From: an uncultured Moraxella sp.
Lineage (GTDB): Bacteria > Pseudomonadota > Gammaproteobacteria > Pseudomonadales > Moraxellaceae
Length of the DNA: 19,161 nucleotides
Direction: 5' to 3'
NCBI GenBank assembly: GCA_927911235.1
Contig: CAKMOY010000105.1
Span: 1-19,161, forward strand
In this document: positions 3,820 to 18,170 of the stretch, in pieces
Layout: every line of letters begins with the position of its first letter
Position numbering within the stretch: position 1 is the first letter of the stretch
The notes under the pieces: generated by a model
What the model saw: only the letters and a program-made list of their open reading frames with translations
Told to the model about the DNA's origin: nothing
Databases searched by the model: none
Program-made: the position numbers and the translations under genes

Positions 3820-4538
3820 TTAGTTATTTGTGGTTTGTTGCTCGGCGATTTTTTGGGCGGATTTTTGGTAACGCACATCTTCGCCTGTGATACAGTAAAG
3901 TAGCTGTTCTGCCATGTTGCGAGCGTGGGCGGCGATACGTTCTTCTAGCGAGCGTAATACCCACATGATATCAATGATTTTGGCGACATTTCGGCTGTCT
4001 TCCATGACGTAAGTCAAAACGGCACGAGAAGCAGATTTGTACATATCGTCAATTTCTTGGTCTTGGGCTATCACTTTTTGGGCGGTGTCGGCATCAAATT
4101 TGGCAAAGGCATATAGCACGTCATTGAGCATATTTTGCACGTTTTTGCCGATTTGGTAGGCTTCTGAATAACCGATGGGGGCTTGCCCTGTTTTGGTGTC
4201 TTTGCGTGCCATTTTGGCGATTTTTTTGGTTTCATCGCCAATGCGTTCCACGTCCGCACGCATTTGCTAATCGCCATAATCAGGCGTAAATCGGTGGCGA
4301 CAGGTTGGCGTTTTACCAAAACTTTGACGACCATATCGTCCAATTCTTGTTCGGCAAGGTTGATATGACTGTCAGCGTCAATGACTTTGTTTGCCAAAGT
4401 GCCGTCTGTGTCCATCAAGGCTTGCAGAGCTTCGGTAACGTTGGCTTGAGCCATTTCACCCATGTTTAAAAATTGGTTCACCAAATTTTTTAAATCGTTG
4501 TCATAACTTTTTGACAAATGTTCACTAATAATATTCAT
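3820..4538 (-). CDS. phoU: Phosphate signalling protein PhoU, frameshifted as read
   Basis: PhoU is a cytoplasmic all-helical regulator that links the Pst phosphate transporter to the PhoR/PhoB two-component system. The N-terminal repeat (SEHLSKSYDNDLKNL, then M-G-E-M-A) and the C-terminal repeat with R-A-D-V-E-R-I-G-D-E and R-S-L-E-E-R-I-A-A-H-A-R-N form the two three-helix bundles. The frame breaks at 4263-4265: one more A on the coding strand would join RLIMAISK to MRADVERIG and restore 239 residues, the usual length. ATG 4538 is chosen over the adjacent 4541 because GGAG lies five bases upstream. No pst or phoBR genes are present in the window, so the gene is separated from its usual partners here. 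Confidence 0.85.
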
Positions 4539-4617
4539 CATCACTCCGTTTATCAATTGTTAAAAAAAATTCATGCTAAATTTTAACGAACAAATAAGAC
4601 AAAATGATGACAAAAGT

Positions 4618-5963: not shown

Positions 5964-5990
5964 AAAAAATTGACAGCCTTAGGGCTGTTT
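5964..5990 (-). terminator. Small hairpin with U tract overlapping the pgsA stop
   Basis: On the minus strand CAGCC (5983-5987) and GGCTG (5974-5978) flank the loop CTAA, which contains the pgsA TAA stop. A run of six Ts (5964-5969) follows. This could terminate or attenuate transcription between pgsA and tolC. The stem is short, so efficiency is uncertain. Confidence 0.45.
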
Positions 5991-6659
5991 TAGGTACGGC
6001 CACGCCGCTTTTAAATAAATCATCATCGACCACAAGGTCAAAATTACCGAAATTATCATCAAAATATAACCAAGTTTTTCCAACAATTGCCAATTTAACA
6101 ACAATACGGTAATGGCTATCATCTGAAAGGTGGTTTTAAGTTTGCCGACATATGATACCGCCACACTGGTGCGATTGCCAAGTTCTGCCATCCACTCACG
6201 CAGGGCAGACACTGCAATTTCACGAGAAATAATCACAATTGCCGAAATCGCCATGACAATATCAGGGTGCCATTGCACAAGGATAATCAAAGCGGCTGCC
6301 ACCATCAACTTATCCGCCACAGGGTCGAGAAACCGCCCAAATGCCGAACTTAAGTTTAATTTTCTGGCAAAATAACCGTCTAGCCAATCGGTTATCGCCG
6401 CCAACACAAACACCGCCGTCAATAAAAAATGCCGTAATAGACTGTCGCTAAAGTGATACATACCAATGTTGGCAATGGTATTATCGCTAATCGGTGGCTG
6501 ATTAATCCCCATCGCAGGCGGCCAGTACGCAATCGCCACAAATAACGGAATCATCACAATGCGTGCAATGGTAAGATTATTGGGCAGATTAAAAATACTC
6601 GTCTGAGCGGTGGCGACAGCTTGGCTAGCTGAATTTGGCTGTTTGTCGGTTTGGCTCAT
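5979..6659 (-). CDS. pgsA: CDP-diacylglycerol-glycerol-3-phosphate 3-phosphatidyltransferase
   Basis: PgsA is an inner-membrane enzyme that makes phosphatidylglycerol phosphate, the committed step to phosphatidylglycerol and cardiolipin. The protein (226 residues) contains the complete CDP-alcohol phosphatidyltransferase signature D-x2-D-G-x2-A-R-x8-G-x3-D-x3-D, starting at D-W-L-D-G. Hydrophobic helices follow the family pattern. The N-terminus is about 25 residues longer than the minimal enzyme and is rich in Q, S, T and A before FNLPNNLTIARI, the usual start of the conserved region. ATG 6659 has an AAGG site 9 bases upstream. The lipoprotein gene ends 35 bp upstream on the same strand, so the two could be co-transcribed. 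Confidence 0.92.
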   Translation of the reverse strand: MSQTDKQPNSASQAVATAQTSIFNLPNNLTIARIVMIPLFVAIAYWPPAMGINQPPISDNTIANIGMYHFSDSLLRHFLLTAVFVLAAITDWLDGYFARKLNLSSAFGRFLDPVADKLMVAAALIILVQWHPDIVMAISAIVIISREIAVSALREWMAELGNRTSVAVSYVGKLKTTFQMIAITVLLLNWQLLEKLGYILMIISVILTLWSMMIYLKAAWPYLKQP

Positions 6660-8338: not shown

Positions 8339-9745
8339 TTAAATTTTGACGGTATTTTGGTTTAACACTTTTAACAATACTTTGGATTTTCGTTCGTGGT
8401 TATAATTGGCAAACCGTGCCTTTGGCAAGCGTTCAGCAGGGACTTCGGCAAAGCCTAATTCCATAAACCAATGGGCGGTGCGGGTGGTCAAAACGAACAA
8501 TTCGCTGATGTGCTGGATTTTTGCTTGTTTTTGCAAAAATGCTATCAAATCCGCCCCACGATTGCCCTGCCGATAGTTTGGGTGAATGGCGATACAGGCA
8601 ATTTCACCTTGAAAAATCTCGCCTACGTCCGCCTGTAGCGGATACAACGCCCCACAACCAATCACCATGCCATCTCGCTCAATGATACAAAATTTGTCAA
8701 TCTCACTTTCAAGGCGTTCTTTGGAACGGCGAACCAATATCCCTTGTTGTTCCAATGGTTCTAATAATTGTAACAAACCACCAATATCGGCAATGCTAGC
8801 AGGGCGGATTTCGTCATACGCACTTTGGCTAATCAACGTGCCTGAACCGTCATGGGTAAACAATTCTTCTAACAACGCCCCTTTTTTTGCATAAGATAAA
8901 ATATGGGTGCGTGGCACATTTTTTTGGCAAGCGGTGATTGCCGATTGTAAAAAACGCTGGCTTTCTAGCTGTTCAAAATTTGCAGTTTCTTCCATTTGTT
9001 TAACATTTGTCAAATCGTTTAGCAAAATTTGGGCTTGTTTATCGGTTATTTCTCTTATCAAATGTTGGCTAATATCGTACACGCCTGCATTTTTGCCAAG
9101 TAAAATCAATTTATCCGCTTGCAAGGCAATCGCCGTTTGTACCGCCACTTCTTCGGCAAGTAGGTTAAACACCTCGCCTGTCGCCGAATAGCCCATTGAG
9201 CCTAACAGCACGATATGCCCTTGTGATAAACTGTTGGCAATCGCTTGGCTGTCAATGCTCCGCACCTCGCCTGTGAATTGATAATCCACGCCATCATGCA
9301 CGCCATAAGGACGTGCGGTCACGAAATTGCCCGACACCACGTTGATTTTTGAGCCATACATGGGTGAATTTGCCAAGCCCATACAAAACAACGCCTCTAT
9401 CTGTAGCCGTATTGAGCCGACCGCATTTAGCACATGGGGCAAAGCAGTTTTTGGGGTAATGCGTAAATTTTTATAAAAAGGCGTGGTGATATCCGCCTGT
9501 TGCAAATTGCCATCAATCTGCGGACGAGAACCATGCACCAACACAAGGCGAATCCCCAAACTGTGAAGCAACGCAAAATCATAAATCATATCATGAAAAT
9601 TGGCATGACTGACCGCCTCACCACCAAACATCACCACAAAGGTTTTGTTACGGTGCGTGTTAATATAAGGAGCGACATGGCGAAACCAGTGAATATGGTC
9701 GCTATTTTCAAGGTTGGTAGAATTTGGTGATAAGTGTTGGTTCAT
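8339..9745 (-). CDS. argA: N-acetylglutamate synthase (amino-acid N-acetyltransferase)
   Basis: ArgA acetylates glutamate with acetyl-CoA, the first step of arginine biosynthesis. From ATG 9745 the protein has 468 residues. The N-terminal amino-acid-kinase-like domain begins HWFRHVAPYINTHRNKTFVV and contains GGEAV and LVLVHGSRPQI, with G-S-M-G-Y-S-A-T-G-E-V-F-N-L further on. In classical ArgA proteins this domain binds the feedback inhibitor arginine. The C-terminal GNAT domain follows, with CIAIHPNYRQGNRGADLI as the acetyl-CoA binding loop (R/Q-x-x-G-x-G/A pattern). The extension upstream to 9796 has no support. The gene is transcribed divergently from the secreted DUF11-like protein and precedes yraN. 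Confidence 0.93.
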   Translation of the reverse strand: MNQHLSPNSTNLENSDHIHWFRHVAPYINTHRNKTFVVMFGGEAVSHANFHDMIYDFALLHSLGIRLVLVHGSRPQIDGNLQQADITTPFYKNLRITPKTALPHVLNAVGSIRLQIEALFCMGLANSPMYGSKINVVSGNFVTARPYGVHDGVDYQFTGEVRSIDSQAIANSLSQGHIVLLGSMGYSATGEVFNLLAEEVAVQTAIALQADKLILLGKNAGVYDISQHLIREITDKQAQILLNDLTNVKQMEETANFEQLESQRFLQSAITACQKNVPRTHILSYAKKGALLEELFTHDGSGTLISQSAYDEIRPASIADIGGLLQLLEPLEQQGILVRRSKERLESEIDKFCIIERDGMVIGCGALYPLQADVGEIFQGEIACIAIHPNYRQGNRGADLIAFLQKQAKIQHISELFVLTTRTAHWFMELGFAEVPAERLPKARFANYNHERKSKVLLKVLNQNTVKI

Positions 9746-9911
9746 GGCGTTTTTTTTAGTTTTTATCAAAAAAAATAAGGTAACAAATTTTGCCAAAAAA
9801 ACAAGCTTTATTTTAAAAATTTCAAAAAAATATTACAAAATTTCGCTCGCCTGTTTTTATTTGTTACAACGCTGTCAATTTTAACAAGTTTATGATGTGT
9901 TTTTGCCAAAA

Positions 9912-10569: not shown

Positions 10570-12085
10570 TTAATCAGCAACATTGATTGCCCAATATTTG
10601 GTGGTTAAATATTCTTCCACGCCATATTTTGAACCCTCACGCCCAAAACCTGACTGTTTCACCCCACCAAACGGTGCAACAGCGGTAGAAATCAGCCCTG
10701 TATTTTGTCCAACAATGCCGTATTCCAACTGCTCGGACACTCGCCAAGACCGCTGTAAATCATTGGTATAAAAATAACACGCCAACCCAAAAATGGTATC
10801 ATTGGCACGCTGTATCACTTCGTCTTCAGTATCAAAGCCATAAATGGCAGTTACAGGGGCAAAAATCTCGGTGCTTGCCATCGCCATGCTCTCATCAACA
10901 TTGTCCAAAATTGCAGGGGTCAAGCACAGTTTTGATGATGAATGCACCTTGCCTCCTGTTACAAGTTTTGCCCCTTTGTCGGTGGCATCTTTGATTAGAC
11001 TTTGGGCTTTTTTCATCGCATCTTGGTTAATCAACGCACCAATGTCGGTGTTTTTGTTCATGCCGTTGCCGACTTTTAATTGTTCAACTTGTTTTTGGTA
11101 AAGTTTTACAAATTTATCCTTAATGCTGTTTTGCACATAAATGCGGTTGGCACACACGCAGGTTTGCCCTGCGTTGCGGTATTTTGATGCAATTAAGCCA
11201 TCACACGCTTTTTGCAAATCGGCATCGTCAAAAATGATAAATGGGGCATTTCCACCCAATTCCATAGACATTTTTTTGACAGTTTCTGCACATTGTGCCA
11301 TCAGCTTTCGCCCAACTTCGGTTGAGCCTGTGAATGAAAATTTGGCAATGCGTTCATCGCTAGTCAAAACCCCACCGACCACGTCCGATTTGCCAGTAAC
11401 GATTTGCAATAATCCTTTAGGGAAGCCCGCTTGCAATGCCAATTCGCCCAATGCCAATGCCGAAAAAGGCGTTTGGGTGGCAGGTTTAACAATCATGCTA
11501 CAGCCGACCGCCAAGGCTGGGGCGACTTTACGAGTAATCATGGCGGACGGAAAATTCCACGGTGTCACCGAAGCACACACGCCCACAGGCTGTTTTAGCA
11601 CGACATAACGCAAGTCGTCTTTGTCATTTGGCAAGGTGTCGCCGTACACTCGCTTGCCCTCTTCGGCAAAAAATCGGATATAGCTATTGGCATAATCAAT
11701 CTCGCCAAGCGATTCTTTGATGGGTTTGCCCTGCTCGGCAGTCATGATGATGGCAAGGTCTTGTTTGTTTTGTTCAATCAAATCCGCCCATTTGTGGAGC
11801 AATTCAGCACGGTGAAAGGCGGTTTTTTTCGCCCAGTCTTTTTGGGCTTTTTGTGAATGGGTAACGGCTTTTTTGACTTCGGCTTTGGATAGGCTCGGTA
11901 CTTGTCCGACAAGGCTACCGTCAAAGGGATTGACGACATCTATCATCTCGCCTGTTTTGGCAGTTTTCCAGTCATTATTGATAAAACAGGCTTGTTTTAA
12001 CAAGGCTTTGTTTTTTAATTTTAAAGTGGATTTTTTGGGTTTTGCAGTTTTTGCGGTTTTTGGAAGTTTTACTTGATTTTGCCAT
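10570..12085 (-). CDS. gabD: NAD(P)-dependent succinate-semialdehyde dehydrogenase
   Basis: GabD oxidises succinate semialdehyde to succinate, the last step of 4-aminobutyrate (GABA) breakdown. The 477-residue core (to 12003) has the aldehyde dehydrogenase landmarks in order: TPWNFP, FTGSTEVG (nucleotide binding), M-E-L-G-G-N-A-P (catalytic glutamate) and G-Q-T-C-V-C-A-N-R (catalytic cysteine; the nearby second cysteine is typical of GabD). The core lacks an ATG and starts a few residues too late compared with known GabD. An ATG at 12085 with an AAGGA site lies in another frame. Removing one T from the five-T run 12057-12061 joins it, adding a lysine-rich leader (KTAKTAKPKKSTLKLKNKAL) for about 504 residues. 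No gabT is nearby. Other semialdehyde dehydrogenases of the class are possible but less likely. Confidence 0.85.
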
Positions 12086-12220
12086 GATGGTTTTCCTTTT
12101 TTACAAATTTTACAAATGAGTTTGCATAAAGTTTACACCCAAAACCGCTTTTCGTCATTAGGCTATGCGTTGCAAAAATTTATCAAATGTAGTGTTCATG
12201 TAAAAAACTTCCAAAAAAAA

Positions 12221-12236
12221 TGTTCCACGTGGAACA
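12221..12236. other. parS centromere site (ParB binding)
   Basis: TGTTCCACGTGGAACA is a perfect 16-bp palindrome identical to the chromosomal parS sequence known from pseudomonads and close to the general bacterial consensus TGTTTCACGTGAAACA. ParB binds parS and, with ParA, segregates the replication origin region. The site lies between gabD and cysG in a 160-bp gap. A flank of As and Ts extends the palindrome to 26 bp (12216-12241). Because it follows the cysG stop by 9 bases and is followed by a T tract on the minus strand, the same DNA could also end cysG transcription. Confidence 0.85.
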
Positions 12237-12245
12237 TTTTTGGAT

Positions 12246-13646
12246 TTAAGCACCATATAAAGCCACCACTTCCCCAACAATAATCACCGCAGGGGCAGGT
12301 AATTGAGCGACCGCTTGCTTTGCAACAATATCATCAAGCGTGCCTGTCAAAACCTGCTGATTTTCTCGCCCTGCATTAGACACAATGGCAACAGGCGTAT
12401 GCTGTGGTACGTCTGCCTTTACAAGGTTTTGGCAAAGCGGTGCTAAGGCGTGTAGCCCCATATAAAACACCAACGTTTCGTCCTTGTGGTATGGACTTTT
12501 TAGCTCATCAAGATATTCATCGCTTTGATAACACGCTGTCAAAAACCGCACAGACGTTGCCACGCCACGATGAGTAAGCGGAATGCCTGCCCCATTTGAT
12601 GCCGCCAAAGCAGACGTGATGCCACTCACCACTTGATACGGCACGCCTGCTTGACGGCACGCCAGCATTTCTTCACCGCCACGCCCAAAAATAAACGGGT
12701 CGCCCCCTTTTAGGCGTAACACTCGCTTACCCGCTTTGGCATGAAACACAAGCAGTTCATTAATCTCGTCTTGGGTTTTGGTGTGGTTACTGCGTTTTTT
12801 GCCCACAAAAATTTTATCGCTATCACGGCGACACAAATCCACAATCTCTTGTGGCACAAGGGCATCATACAGCACGATATCGGCTTGTTGCATGAGACGC
12901 AAGGCTTTAAAAGTCAGCAAATCTGCCCCACCTGCCCCTGCACCAACGATATAGACTTCGCCTGTGTGCGTACCGGTTAAATTTTGTTCAAAATCCGCCA
13001 AAGCGACCGCCAAATCATCAGCCGTCAATGCTTGCTTGCCGTGCGTTGTGGCGTTGTTTAAACGTGGGTTTACCGCTGTTTCGTTTAGACTATCGGCAAA
13101 GATTTTTTCCCAAAATTTGCGTCTTAAATTCATATTTGGCAATTTCTCTTTGACCGTTTGGCGAAATTCCCCTGCCACTTTGGCAATGTGGCTTAAGTTT
13201 TGCGGTAACATACTCTCAATTTTGGCACGCACAAGCCTTGCTAACACAGGGGCTTTGCCGTTACTCGTTATGCCAATAACCAAAGGACTTCTATCGACAA
13301 TGGCAGGAAAAATAAAATCGCAAAGCTCTGGGGTATCCACTACATTGACAGGGATATGTTTGGCGTGAGCATCTGTATAAATTTGGCGGTTTAAGGCGTT
13401 GTCGTCCGTTGCCACAATGATGATGGCAAAATTGGCAAGGGCTAAATCCTCCTTATCATAGCTTTTTTGCAAAATCTGCTCGCTTGGTAAAAGTTCAAAA
13501 AACTTCTCATCAACGGATTTTGCCACCACAAATACCCTTGCCCTTGCCAACATGACAAGGCTTGCCTTACGATAAGCGACATCGCCACCGCCAACAATAA
13601 GCACGTCTTTATTGGTCAAATTAAAAAATAAGGGCAAGGTGTTCAT
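12246..13646 (-). CDS. cysG: Siroheme synthase CysG (fused dehydrogenase/ferrochelatase and methyltransferase)
   Basis: CysG converts uroporphyrinogen III to siroheme, the cofactor of the sulfite reductase CysI encoded upstream in this cluster. The 466-residue protein is the full fusion. The N-terminal module (MNTLPLFFNL, then V-L-I-V-G-G-G-D-V-A-Y-R-K-A binding NAD) performs dehydrogenation and iron insertion. The aspartate in N-V-V-D-T-P and the serine in I-T-S-N-G-K correspond to Salmonella CysG Asp104 and Ser128. The C-terminal SAM-dependent methyltransferase begins at GEVYIVGAGAG and has V-L-Y-D, RLKGGDPFIFGRGGEE and F-Y-M-G. The glycine-rich loop reads GAGAGGADLLT where most relatives have GAGPGDxxLLT. 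The start at 13646 follows an AAAGGAAA site. It is the last gene of the minus-strand sulfur cluster. Confidence 0.93.
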   Translation of the reverse strand: MNTLPLFFNLTNKDVLIVGGGDVAYRKASLVMLARARVFVVAKSVDEKFFELLPSEQILQKSYDKEDLALANFAIIIVATDDNALNRQIYTDAHAKHIPVNVVDTPELCDFIFPAIVDRSPLVIGITSNGKAPVLARLVRAKIESMLPQNLSHIAKVAGEFRQTVKEKLPNMNLRRKFWEKIFADSLNETAVNPRLNNATTHGKQALTADDLAVALADFEQNLTGTHTGEVYIVGAGAGGADLLTFKALRLMQQADIVLYDALVPQEIVDLCRRDSDKIFVGKKRSNHTKTQDEINELLVFHAKAGKRVLRLKGGDPFIFGRGGEEMLACRQAGVPYQVVSGITSALAASNGAGIPLTHRGVATSVRFLTACYQSDEYLDELKSPYHKDETLVFYMGLHALAPLCQNLVKADVPQHTPVAIVSNAGRENQQVLTGTLDDIVAKQAVAQLPAPAVIIVGEVVALYGA

Positions 13647-13735: not shown

Positions 13736-14391
13736 TCAAATTTGCGTATGCAAACCGCATTCACGGTGGGCAAGGGCTTTGGTTGGGTCAAAATAATCAT
13801 CTTCGCCATACTCGGCAAGGGTTGGCAAGCCGTTATCTTTTTGATAAGCGTCCAGCTCGTCTGCGGTAGCGTTAAACAGCGGCGCAACTTTTAGCACGCC
13901 ATCTTTTGACAAAGACAGCACGTCCAACGCCCCACGAAACTCGGTTTGGTCTTTTCGAATGGCGTTAAACCACACGTCTGGGGCAAGCTCGGCTAAGGCT
14001 CGGCGAAACGGCTCAAGTTTGACCTGCTCGGTAAATTCGCCATGCAAATCGCTGTCCACATCTGGAATGCCGTTCATTGCCACATCACGAAAGGCACGAG
14101 TTTGGGCAGGGATAAAGGTTTTGACCGATAGGTTTAAATCTTTGATGATTTTTGGGCGTGTTGGTAGGTTTGCACGGTGTTATAACCACTGTCCACAAAC
14201 AGCACCGTGATGTCAGGTTTAACACCGCTGACAAGGTGCAAAATAGACGCTTCAAATGGGCGAAAATTGGTGGTGATGATTGGGTTTTTGGCGATGGATA
14301 ATGCCCATTCCACAATCTCTTTTGGCGATTTGCCTTGAAGTTTGGCGTTGTATTCGGCAAGGTTTTGCTCGGTTACGATGGTTTTTGACAT
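13736..14391 (-). CDS. cysH: Phosphoadenosine phosphosulfate (PAPS) reductase, frameshifted as read
   Basis: CysH reduces activated sulfate (PAPS) to sulfite using thioredoxin or glutaredoxin. The N-terminal half (S-P-K-E-I-V-E-W-A, TTNFRPFEASILHLV, then V-L-F-V-D-S-G-Y-N-T) is the nucleotide-binding PP-loop-like domain. The C-terminal half has N-A-I-R-K-D-Q-T and ends with E-C-G-L-H, the redox-active cysteine motif. The CC...CxxC iron-sulfur cysteines of APS reductases are absent, which points to the PAPS-specific class. The halves are in different frames. One more T in the run 14149-14153 would restore TYQHAQKIIKDLNLSVKTF and a normal 218-residue protein. The start is at 14391. REP-like palindromes flank the gene on both sides. 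An APS kinase (cysC) would be needed and is not in the window. Confidence 0.85.
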
Positions 14392-14419
14392 GACTGTCTC
14401 CTGTTTTGAAAAATTGATT

Positions 14420-14445
14420 GGGCGTAAGCATTACGCCCCTACGGT
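14420..14445. repeat. REP-like palindrome, copy B (cysH-DUF934 gap)
   Basis: GGGCGTAA (14420-14427), loop GCA and TTACGCCC (14431-14438) form a perfect 8-bp hairpin followed by CTACGGT, the same layout as copy A at 13707. It lies just upstream of cysH within the cluster. Confidence 0.7.
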
Positions 14446-14453
14446 TACGATTT

Positions 14454-15031
14454 TTAAAATAAATTTGAAAATTGACGAAACATTGGCAAACTGTTTACCG
14501 ATGTGCCATGATGGGCGGACGCTAAGTCGTTTAGTGTTTTTAGCACAATTTGGGCTAAGGCAACATCATCATCTGCCACGACAAATGCCGACACGCCTGC
14601 ATTACTAAAATAAGCGGTTTGGTCGTGTCCAAAATTACCAGCGATAAAAATATTGCCATCAAAGCCATGCTTGCGTAATTGACGAATTAAACTAAACACT
14701 CGCCCATCACTAAACACTTTTTGATAAATGACAATGTTTGGCAAAGCGTTTGCCATTGATGCGTTTGTAAAACTGTTTGCACTTGAGCAAAACTGTCGTC
14801 AGCGGTTAATAACAAACCATTGGCATTGCCGTCAATCTCATCACTTAGCACATTTAACACCAACGTATTGTCATCTTTCACAAGCGTTTGGGCTTGGCTT
14901 GTGCTGATAAAATTTGGCTCAAATCCCGCCCACGCATTGTTATCGGCAGTTGGCTCGGTATTTGCAATGAGATAAATTTGGCTTGATTTTTGATAACTGT
15001 CGCCATTTTTATTGGCAAAAATAATGTTCAT
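14454..15031 (-). CDS. DUF934 family protein, frameshifted as read
   Basis: DUF934 proteins are encoded next to cysI in many gamma- and betaproteobacteria and their biochemical role is unresolved. An accessory function for sulfite reductase is the usual guess. The N-terminal half starts MNIIFANKNG. The conserved C-terminal part has V-F-S-D-G-R-V-F-S-L-I-R-Q-L-R, H-G-F-D-G-N-I-F-I-A-G-N and H-D-Q-x-A-Y-F-S-N-A-G-V-S-A-F, typical of the family. The frame breaks near 14756: restoring one A on the coding strand joins LQTHQ to MANALPNIVIY and yields 192 residues. ATG 15031 lies two bases after the cysI stop, so translation is likely coupled to cysI. Confidence 0.75.
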
Positions 15032-16929: not shown

Positions 16930-18170
16930 ATGAGCCAAACCAACGCCAACATTTTTAGCAATGACGACATTTATACCGAACTTGTGCCACCGCACGGCAG
17001 TCCTGTTTTAAAACCCCTTGCCCTAACAGGCAATGAGCTTGCCAATGCCATTAGCACCGCCAAAACTTTGCCAAAAATCACCTTGTCATCTCGTGAGCGT
17101 GGCGATTTGATTATGCTAGGCATTGGCGGATTTACACCGCTTGATGGCTTTATGGGCGAAACCGATTATCAAGGCGTGGTGGACAACATGACCTTAACGC
17201 AAGGCGGTGTGGACGGCGACTATCAAGGCGTATTTTTCCGATTCCAATTACTCTAAGCGTAGATAAAGCCACAGCCGACACCATTAAACTTGGCGATACG
17301 CTTGCCCTTTATTCTCATGCCGATGATGGTGATGAATTGATGGGAACAATCACCGTTAGCAGTATTTTTACGCCAAACAAAGCCCACGAATGCCGTCAAG
17401 TCTTTGGCACGGACGACACTGCCCACGTTGGTGTTAAACAAGTGTTGGATAACGGTGAAGTGTATATCGGTGGCAAAGTGCAAGTGTTTAGTCAAGGCGA
17501 ATTTGTCAAAGATTATCCAGAGATTTACAAAACCCCTGCCCAAACTCGTGCCTTGTTTAAACAAAAAGGCTGGAAAACCATCTCAGCGTTCCAAACTCGC
17601 AATCCGATGCACCGCTCGCATGAATATCTTGCCAAAATCGCCCTAGAAATTACTGATGGTGTGATGATTCACTCATTACTTGGCAAGCTAAAAGCTGGCG
17701 ACATTCCTGCAAGCGTCCGCCAAAAAGCCATTGCCACGCTTATTGACAATTACTTTAAAAAAGACACCGTGATACAAGCAGGCTATCCGCTTGATATGCG
17801 TTACGCAGGCCCAAAAGAAGCCCTACTTCATGCCCTGTTCCGCCAAAATTATGGCTGTAGTTATTTGATTGTGGGGCGAGACCATGCAGGCGTGGGCGAT
17901 TATTATGGGGCGTTTGATGCACAAAAAATCTTTGACACCTTGCCAAAAGACGCTCTTTTGACCAAACCTTTAAAAATTGACTGGACGTTTTATTGCACAG
18001 CGTGTAACGGCATGGCAAGCACCAAAACCTGTCCACATGACGAGAGCAATCACGTTAAAATCTCTGGCACAAAACTACGCACCGCCCTTAGCAATGGCGA
18101 AGACGTGCCAGACACCTTTAGCCGTCCAGAAGTTTTAGCGATTTTAAAAGAATATTATCAAGGTTTATAA
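16930..18170 (+). CDS. sat: ATP sulfurylase (sulfate adenylyltransferase, Sat type), frameshifted as read
   Basis: Sat makes adenosine 5'-phosphosulfate from ATP and sulfate, the first step of sulfate assimilation. It is the single-chain enzyme, not CysD/CysN. Key motifs are [11 protein letters not shown] (ATP binding), [12 protein letters not shown] and K-I-S-G-T-K-L-R. The segment F-Y-C-T-A-C-N-G-M with K-T-C-P-H resembles the zinc-binding cysteines and histidine of some Sat enzymes. The frame is lost at 17238-17239. With CCC instead of CC, the sequence continues [20 protein letters not shown] into the long second part, giving 413 residues, a normal length. The start has an AGGA site. The gene is divergent from cysI and ends at a bidirectional terminator. 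Confidence 0.88.

Follow-up and report, generated by a model that had tools for sequence, protein, structure and literature searches.

parS sites and intrinsic terminators are each well documented, and the new element reported here is a predicted overlap of the two. The closest described counterparts are parS2 and parS3 of Pseudomonas aeruginosa, printed as TGTTCCAC/GTGGAACA in the available part of PMC4368675, which also gives them as the sites bound most strongly by the ParB of that species. Nine of the ten P. aeruginosa parS are said to lie within coding sequences, unlike the site described below, and a terminator role goes unmentioned in the same part of that source. The word "terminator" is likewise absent from the accessible text of a review of chromosomal ParB (PMC7022226), and the string "terminat" from that of a ParABS review (PMC7333895). 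No report of parS sites as terminators was found in the literature on parS/ParB and termination, searched mostly outside subscription journals.

The window, meaning the whole analysed stretch of 19,161 bp, carries a single such site, placed directly behind a gene:

12221..12236, no strand: perfectly palindromic 16-bp parS core TGTTCCACGTGGAACA; unmatched elsewhere in the window even when 3 mismatches are allowed, with the letters of P. aeruginosa parS2/parS3
12216..12241, no strand: 26-bp perfect palindrome AAAAATGTTCCACGTGGAACATTTTT, the parS core with A5/T5 flanks
12202..12244, minus strand: predicted intrinsic terminator behind cysG, the parS core forming the tip of its hairpin, from sequence, fold energy and the style of other gene ends
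12246..13646, minus strand: cysG (siroheme synthase), the gene ending at the site; NF007922, 564.1 bits, cut-off 400
10570..12003, minus strand: gabD-like aldehyde dehydrogenase, the next gene on the same strand; best models under cut-off, relatives 55-67% identical

The core agrees letter for letter with parS2/parS3 as they stand in the available part of PMC4368675, and it is an exact match to the TGTTYCACGTGRAACA class of 16-bp palindromes. By base composition, 3.6e-6 exact copies of TGTTCCACGTGGAACA are expected in the window; for the looser family TGTTYCAYRTGRAACA, the expectation is 1.1e-4 in the window and 0.013 in 2.2 Mb. Matches with 3 mismatches occur in shuffled windows with a mean of 0.11 (at least one in 21 of 200 shuffles), so such a match alone has little meaning and it is the exactness that counts. 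AAAAATGTTCCACGTGGAACATTTTT is the sole perfect palindrome of at least 14 bp in the window, and the A-run on its plus-strand side is 8 nt long (12213-12220). The core is separated by 9 bp from the cysG stop codon (12248-12246, minus strand), and the gabD-like ORF, also on the minus strand, begins 217 bp from the core. The earlier note had read an exact core, the longer palindrome, an improbable chance origin and this spacing from the letters of the window, and all four readings hold. Long palindromes are often dimer sites, and the operator of an unrelated regulator might share this one; the exact identity with parS, the location past a gene end with the next start 217 bp away, and the single copy in the window make such an operator extremely improbable.

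The gene ending at the site is cysG, while the gabD of the earlier note can be kept only as a gabD-like gene: its protein comes near the SSADH models but stays under their curated cut-offs (643.6 of 828 bits and 638.6 of 646.35 bits). The window CysG is 61-66% identical, in the best segment, to proteins of 12 Moraxella records; no relatives of it were found in viral contigs. Judged by this protein, the host is a Moraxella-like bacterium and no pseudomonad. The designation "parS of pseudomonads" thus suits the motif, whose letters are those of parS2/parS3, and not the host. Elsewhere in the window (3820-4556, 13736-15031 and 16930-18170), phoU and sat each occupy a pair of ORFs that differ in frame, and short ORFs are all that the cysH/DUF934 region contains. 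These look like sequencing errors or decayed genes, and because phoU and sat are apparently split by frame, the exact lengths of homopolymer runs in the window may carry sequencing error. A piece of an IS1595-family transposase lies at 821-1306 (65.9 bits, under the cut-off of 75).

On the cysG strand, the predicted hairpin carries the loop ACGU on the stem UGUUCC, which is prolonged by an A/U extension and, at the base, by UCC/GGA pairing. It exceeds the 26-bp palindrome, since TCC at 12210-12212 can pair with GGA at 12242-12244. The core is followed by U8, then GGAAG, then a second U6. The 61 nt at the cysG end fold at -14.5 kcal/mol (z -2.52), with 6 of 200 shuffles equally good. By sequence, then, a predicted stable hairpin and a U-run stand directly behind the stop codon, the arrangement of an intrinsic terminator. 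The same A-tract/stem/T-tract style recurs at three other spots of the window (gabD-like/hypothetical, ftsN/sat and gph/DUF2147), with -10.0 to -15.7 kcal/mol where the hairpins lie wholly inside the 60 nt folded. A consensus terminator scan of the window returned 32 candidates (23.9 expected) and did not include the cysG hairpin, because its stem uses up the T-run and leaves too few T in the tail window. The cysG 3' ends of the 12 relative loci have different or weak hairpins. Were the site a working parS only, the hairpin would be a by-product of a palindrome set between A/T runs in AT-rich intergenic DNA; the shared style at other gene ends of the window argues against this.

Relatives of the host also carry the motif. 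In six single-contig relatives (G058, G071, G097, G023, G083 and G106), all 46 sites of the TGTTYCAYRTGRAACA family lie within 138 kb of dnaA, and the farthest site varies by genome from 20 to 138 kb. The stricter pattern TGTTYCACGTGRAACA is present in 253 of 299 family genomes, with 0 occurrences of its reversed control among the matches listed. The exact core occurs also in the dnaA cluster of G097 and, among the matches listed, in G001, G002 and G005; the exact A4-core-T4 form was found in 0 of the 299 family genomes. A parB gene scored above cut-off in all 11 relatives searched, and together with the 253 genomes that have parS this agrees with the earlier note's expectation of ParB in the genome. 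Because the relatives' sites cluster near dnaA and parB was found in each of the 11, the parS of the window very likely binds ParB. In the six single-contig relatives parB itself lies about 684-989 kb from dnaA (6/6), though parS clusters round dnaA; par operons within the ori domain are described as a conserved feature in the accessible text of a review (PMC7022226). In G058, beside an extended parS about 15 kb from dnaA, translations of a region (462-816 of L178) contain the peptide FLSHLCGVRL again and again at even intervals, the pattern expected of an array of short repeats, CRISPR for example.

The chromosomal position of the window was judged from the maps of relatives, with two further genes as anchors:

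8339..9796, minus strand: argA, map anchor; 91-201 kb from dnaA in 6/6 relatives
5979..6659, minus strand: pgsA-like gene, map anchor; 190-313 kb from dnaA in 5/6 relatives, 971 kb in the sixth

In the window, argA lies about 2.4-3 kb from the core; the one exception for pgsA is G023. A TolC-like protein was dropped as an anchor, being matched in 0 of 7 relatives. By contrast with argA and pgsA, cysG maps 738-1051 kb from dnaA in 6/6 single-contig relatives, and cysI adjoins it in 11 of 12 Moraxella loci. The position of the gabD-like gene varies widely (294-1069 kb from dnaA in the five relatives where it was sought), and the gene was absent near cysG in 33 fetched relative loci, 20 of which reach about 1.5 kb on each side. 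From these different maps, the window thus appears to join mostly origin-side genes to an operon that is terminus-side in relatives, with parS at the junction. The earlier note had placed the window in the origin-proximal domain; this is plausible by argA and pgsA, and the distance of cysG speaks against it. No parS was found in the fetched DNA of the 12 Moraxella cysG loci, so the site is unconserved there.

These maps touch on one more reading, in which the site is a terminator only, its stem resembles parS by chance and ParB is uninvolved. Because terminators are palindromic to begin with, the match would have to cover about 8 free positions, and cysG is terminus-ward in 6/6 relatives. Against it stands the exact match to the best-bound parS, with an expectation of 3.6e-6 in the window. 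Moreover, any ParB with the usual specificity would bind a 16-bp palindrome of these letters, and such a specificity is what the parS clusters of relatives show. Chance resemblance is therefore very unlikely.

Beyond the window, flanks were read at 162 distinct parS sites in the family. These are the 46 sites of the six genomes, 75 others and some from further Moraxella genomes, among the matches listed; the sample is non-random and was picked before the flanks were known. Near-identical 60-mers were counted once, which reduced 168 sites to 163 with the window included. In 21 of the 162 the perfect palindrome runs at least 4 bp past the core, where 0.86 are expected when the flanks of each site are shuffled; 141 sites are without such an extension. 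Extended sites number 6 of 89 in the genomes labelled as genus Moraxella plus G106 (0.42 expected) and 15 of 73 in the remaining genomes (0.44 expected). Eighteen of the 21 belong to the 102 sites without a frame open across +/-140 bp and three to the 60 sites with one. By ORF context, 17 of the 21 are situated 5-63 bp behind a stop codon. L338 and L339 follow the same aminotransferase, L339 at a distance of 71 bp; ORF context had put L339 in a 79-aa frame. The extended sites off gene ends are L350 and L355, inside ORFs, and L358, between divergent ORFs. Of 16 comparison sites with at most 2 extra pairs, hand-picked once the extension was known, 13 lie inside ORFs.

Upstream of the extended sites at gene ends, seven gene families were recognized: alpha/beta hydrolase, aromatic aminotransferase, RsuA facing CrcB, aldehyde dehydrogenase, TsaC, DapB and ThrC. 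The families are named by their best models, some of them under the curated cut-off because the proteins are cut. Orthologous sites inflate the number 21; counted by context there are seven cases at gene ends, plus L350, L355 and L358. The cysG of the window is an eighth gene context.

The alpha/beta hydrolase context allows the arms of the palindrome to be compared among orthologous sites. Eleven of the 162 sites were found by a C-terminal peptide motif of the upstream hydrolase, blind to the extension; the variant YRKFWDK (sites L217 and L290), at least, escapes this motif. At the first six flank positions of these sites 59 of 66 pair despite very different flanks, against 28.3 +/- 3.4 pairs and a maximum of 39 in column shuffles (n=2000). 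When the register is slid by 1 or 2, only 10 to 27 of 55 pair. L243 has no pairing past 2 bp, and the constant core of the set is no result, since the sites were found by the core. A first count with 12 sites gave 97.4% of cells paired and 0 of 500 shuffles as high, but most of these sites had been chosen for being extended, and the 11-site set is preferred for this reason. The parS behind the hydrolase lies 34-40 kb from dnaA in the six genomes where both share a contig and the distance is hence measurable (G118, G254, G087, G154, G067 and G284). A run of at least four T behind the core, in the sense-strand flank, is present at only 5 of the 11 sites, so not all of them resemble textbook terminators. 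Some hairpins of the set could have a different role at the 3' end, or the palindrome could be important as DNA.

Strand asymmetry of the core was compared between gene ends and coding sequences. The 23 single 3'-end sites, window included, comprise 14 symmetric cores and 9 that give G-U on the sense strand, with no C-A mismatch among them, against 23 symmetric, 17 G-U and 8 C-A among 48 sites inside ORFs; this is weak evidence, as the 9 come from few gene contexts. The comparison leaves out 25 sites (11 convergent, 5 ambiguous and 9 other). Behind genes, the sense strand of the asymmetric cores has the form TGTTTCA[CT]GTGGAACA, which allows a G-U pair in RNA, in 9 of 9 cases, versus 17 of 25 inside ORFs.

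The family sites bear on whether the hairpin is a by-product of a site used by ParB alone. Most family sites (141 of 162) do without the extension, 13 of the 16 hand-picked unextended sites lie inside ORFs and need no terminator, and 6 of the 11 covarying sites are without a clear T-run, all of which a by-product would explain. It would leave unexplained 21 extended sites against 0.86 expected, their clustering behind stop codons and the covariation of the arms in the hydrolase set, and it is considered unlikely. The guess of the earlier note, that one sequence serves as both centromere and transcription terminator, gains support from the hairpin at the cysG end, the recurrence and the covariation. 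Quite probably, then, this is a true parS on the chromosome of a Moraxella-like bacterium and at the same time forms the apex of the intrinsic terminator predicted for cysG. On balance, parS of Moraxellaceae also seem to have merged repeatedly with predicted intrinsic terminators, with ParB loading where upstream transcription stops, and cysG would be one independent case.

We infer binding and loading of ParB, termination, and any advantage of their union as follows. In double-stranded DNA, by the known ParABS mechanism, a ParB dimer would recognise the 16-bp palindrome, load with CTP and spread. Once transcribed with cysG, those 16 nt would form a stem of 6 bp closed by the loop ACGU; the A/U flanks would extend the stem, and U-runs follow it. 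From fold and position, hairpin and U-runs would release RNA polymerase. The two uses need not conflict, because they act on different molecules. As DNA the merged palindrome would be maintained by ParB, and as RNA by transcription termination; a terminator at parS would stop cysG transcription from crossing the ParB loading site. A milder form of this dual reading, contained in its probability, holds both functions to be real and their union to be without benefit, with terminators supplying palindromes for parS, or the reverse. It accounts for the recurrence in seven contexts and at cysG, and for the covariation as long as termination stays needed; the data are equally compatible with a selected overlap, and the milder form is put forward tentatively, as a possibility.

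Behind the dual reading stands the question of how ParB, as it loads and slides as a clamp, is reconciled with transcription across the centromere region, and a recurring class of terminator-like parS makes this question testable. It also suggests a simple route to new parS sites, because a terminator is already a palindrome.

Compared with known systems, the site shares its 16-bp core with parS2/parS3 of P. aeruginosa (PMC4368675, available part) and its motif family with the parS clusters round dnaA in relatives of Moraxella. It differs from the latter in adjoining cysG, as these relatives have parS in 0 of 12 cysG loci and cysG far from dnaA in 6/6. In architecture, energy and position at a gene end, the site is like bidirectional A-tract/stem/T-tract terminators; unlike the ordinary ones, its stem and loop together make up a complete parS, the sequence of a putative ParB site. 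In Neisseria and Pasteurellaceae, paired DNA uptake sequences serve as terminators. There, too, a protein-recognised DNA word is reused as a terminator stem, as is proposed here for parS; uptake words are present in very many copies per genome, whereas parS copies are few, 0-11 per genome.
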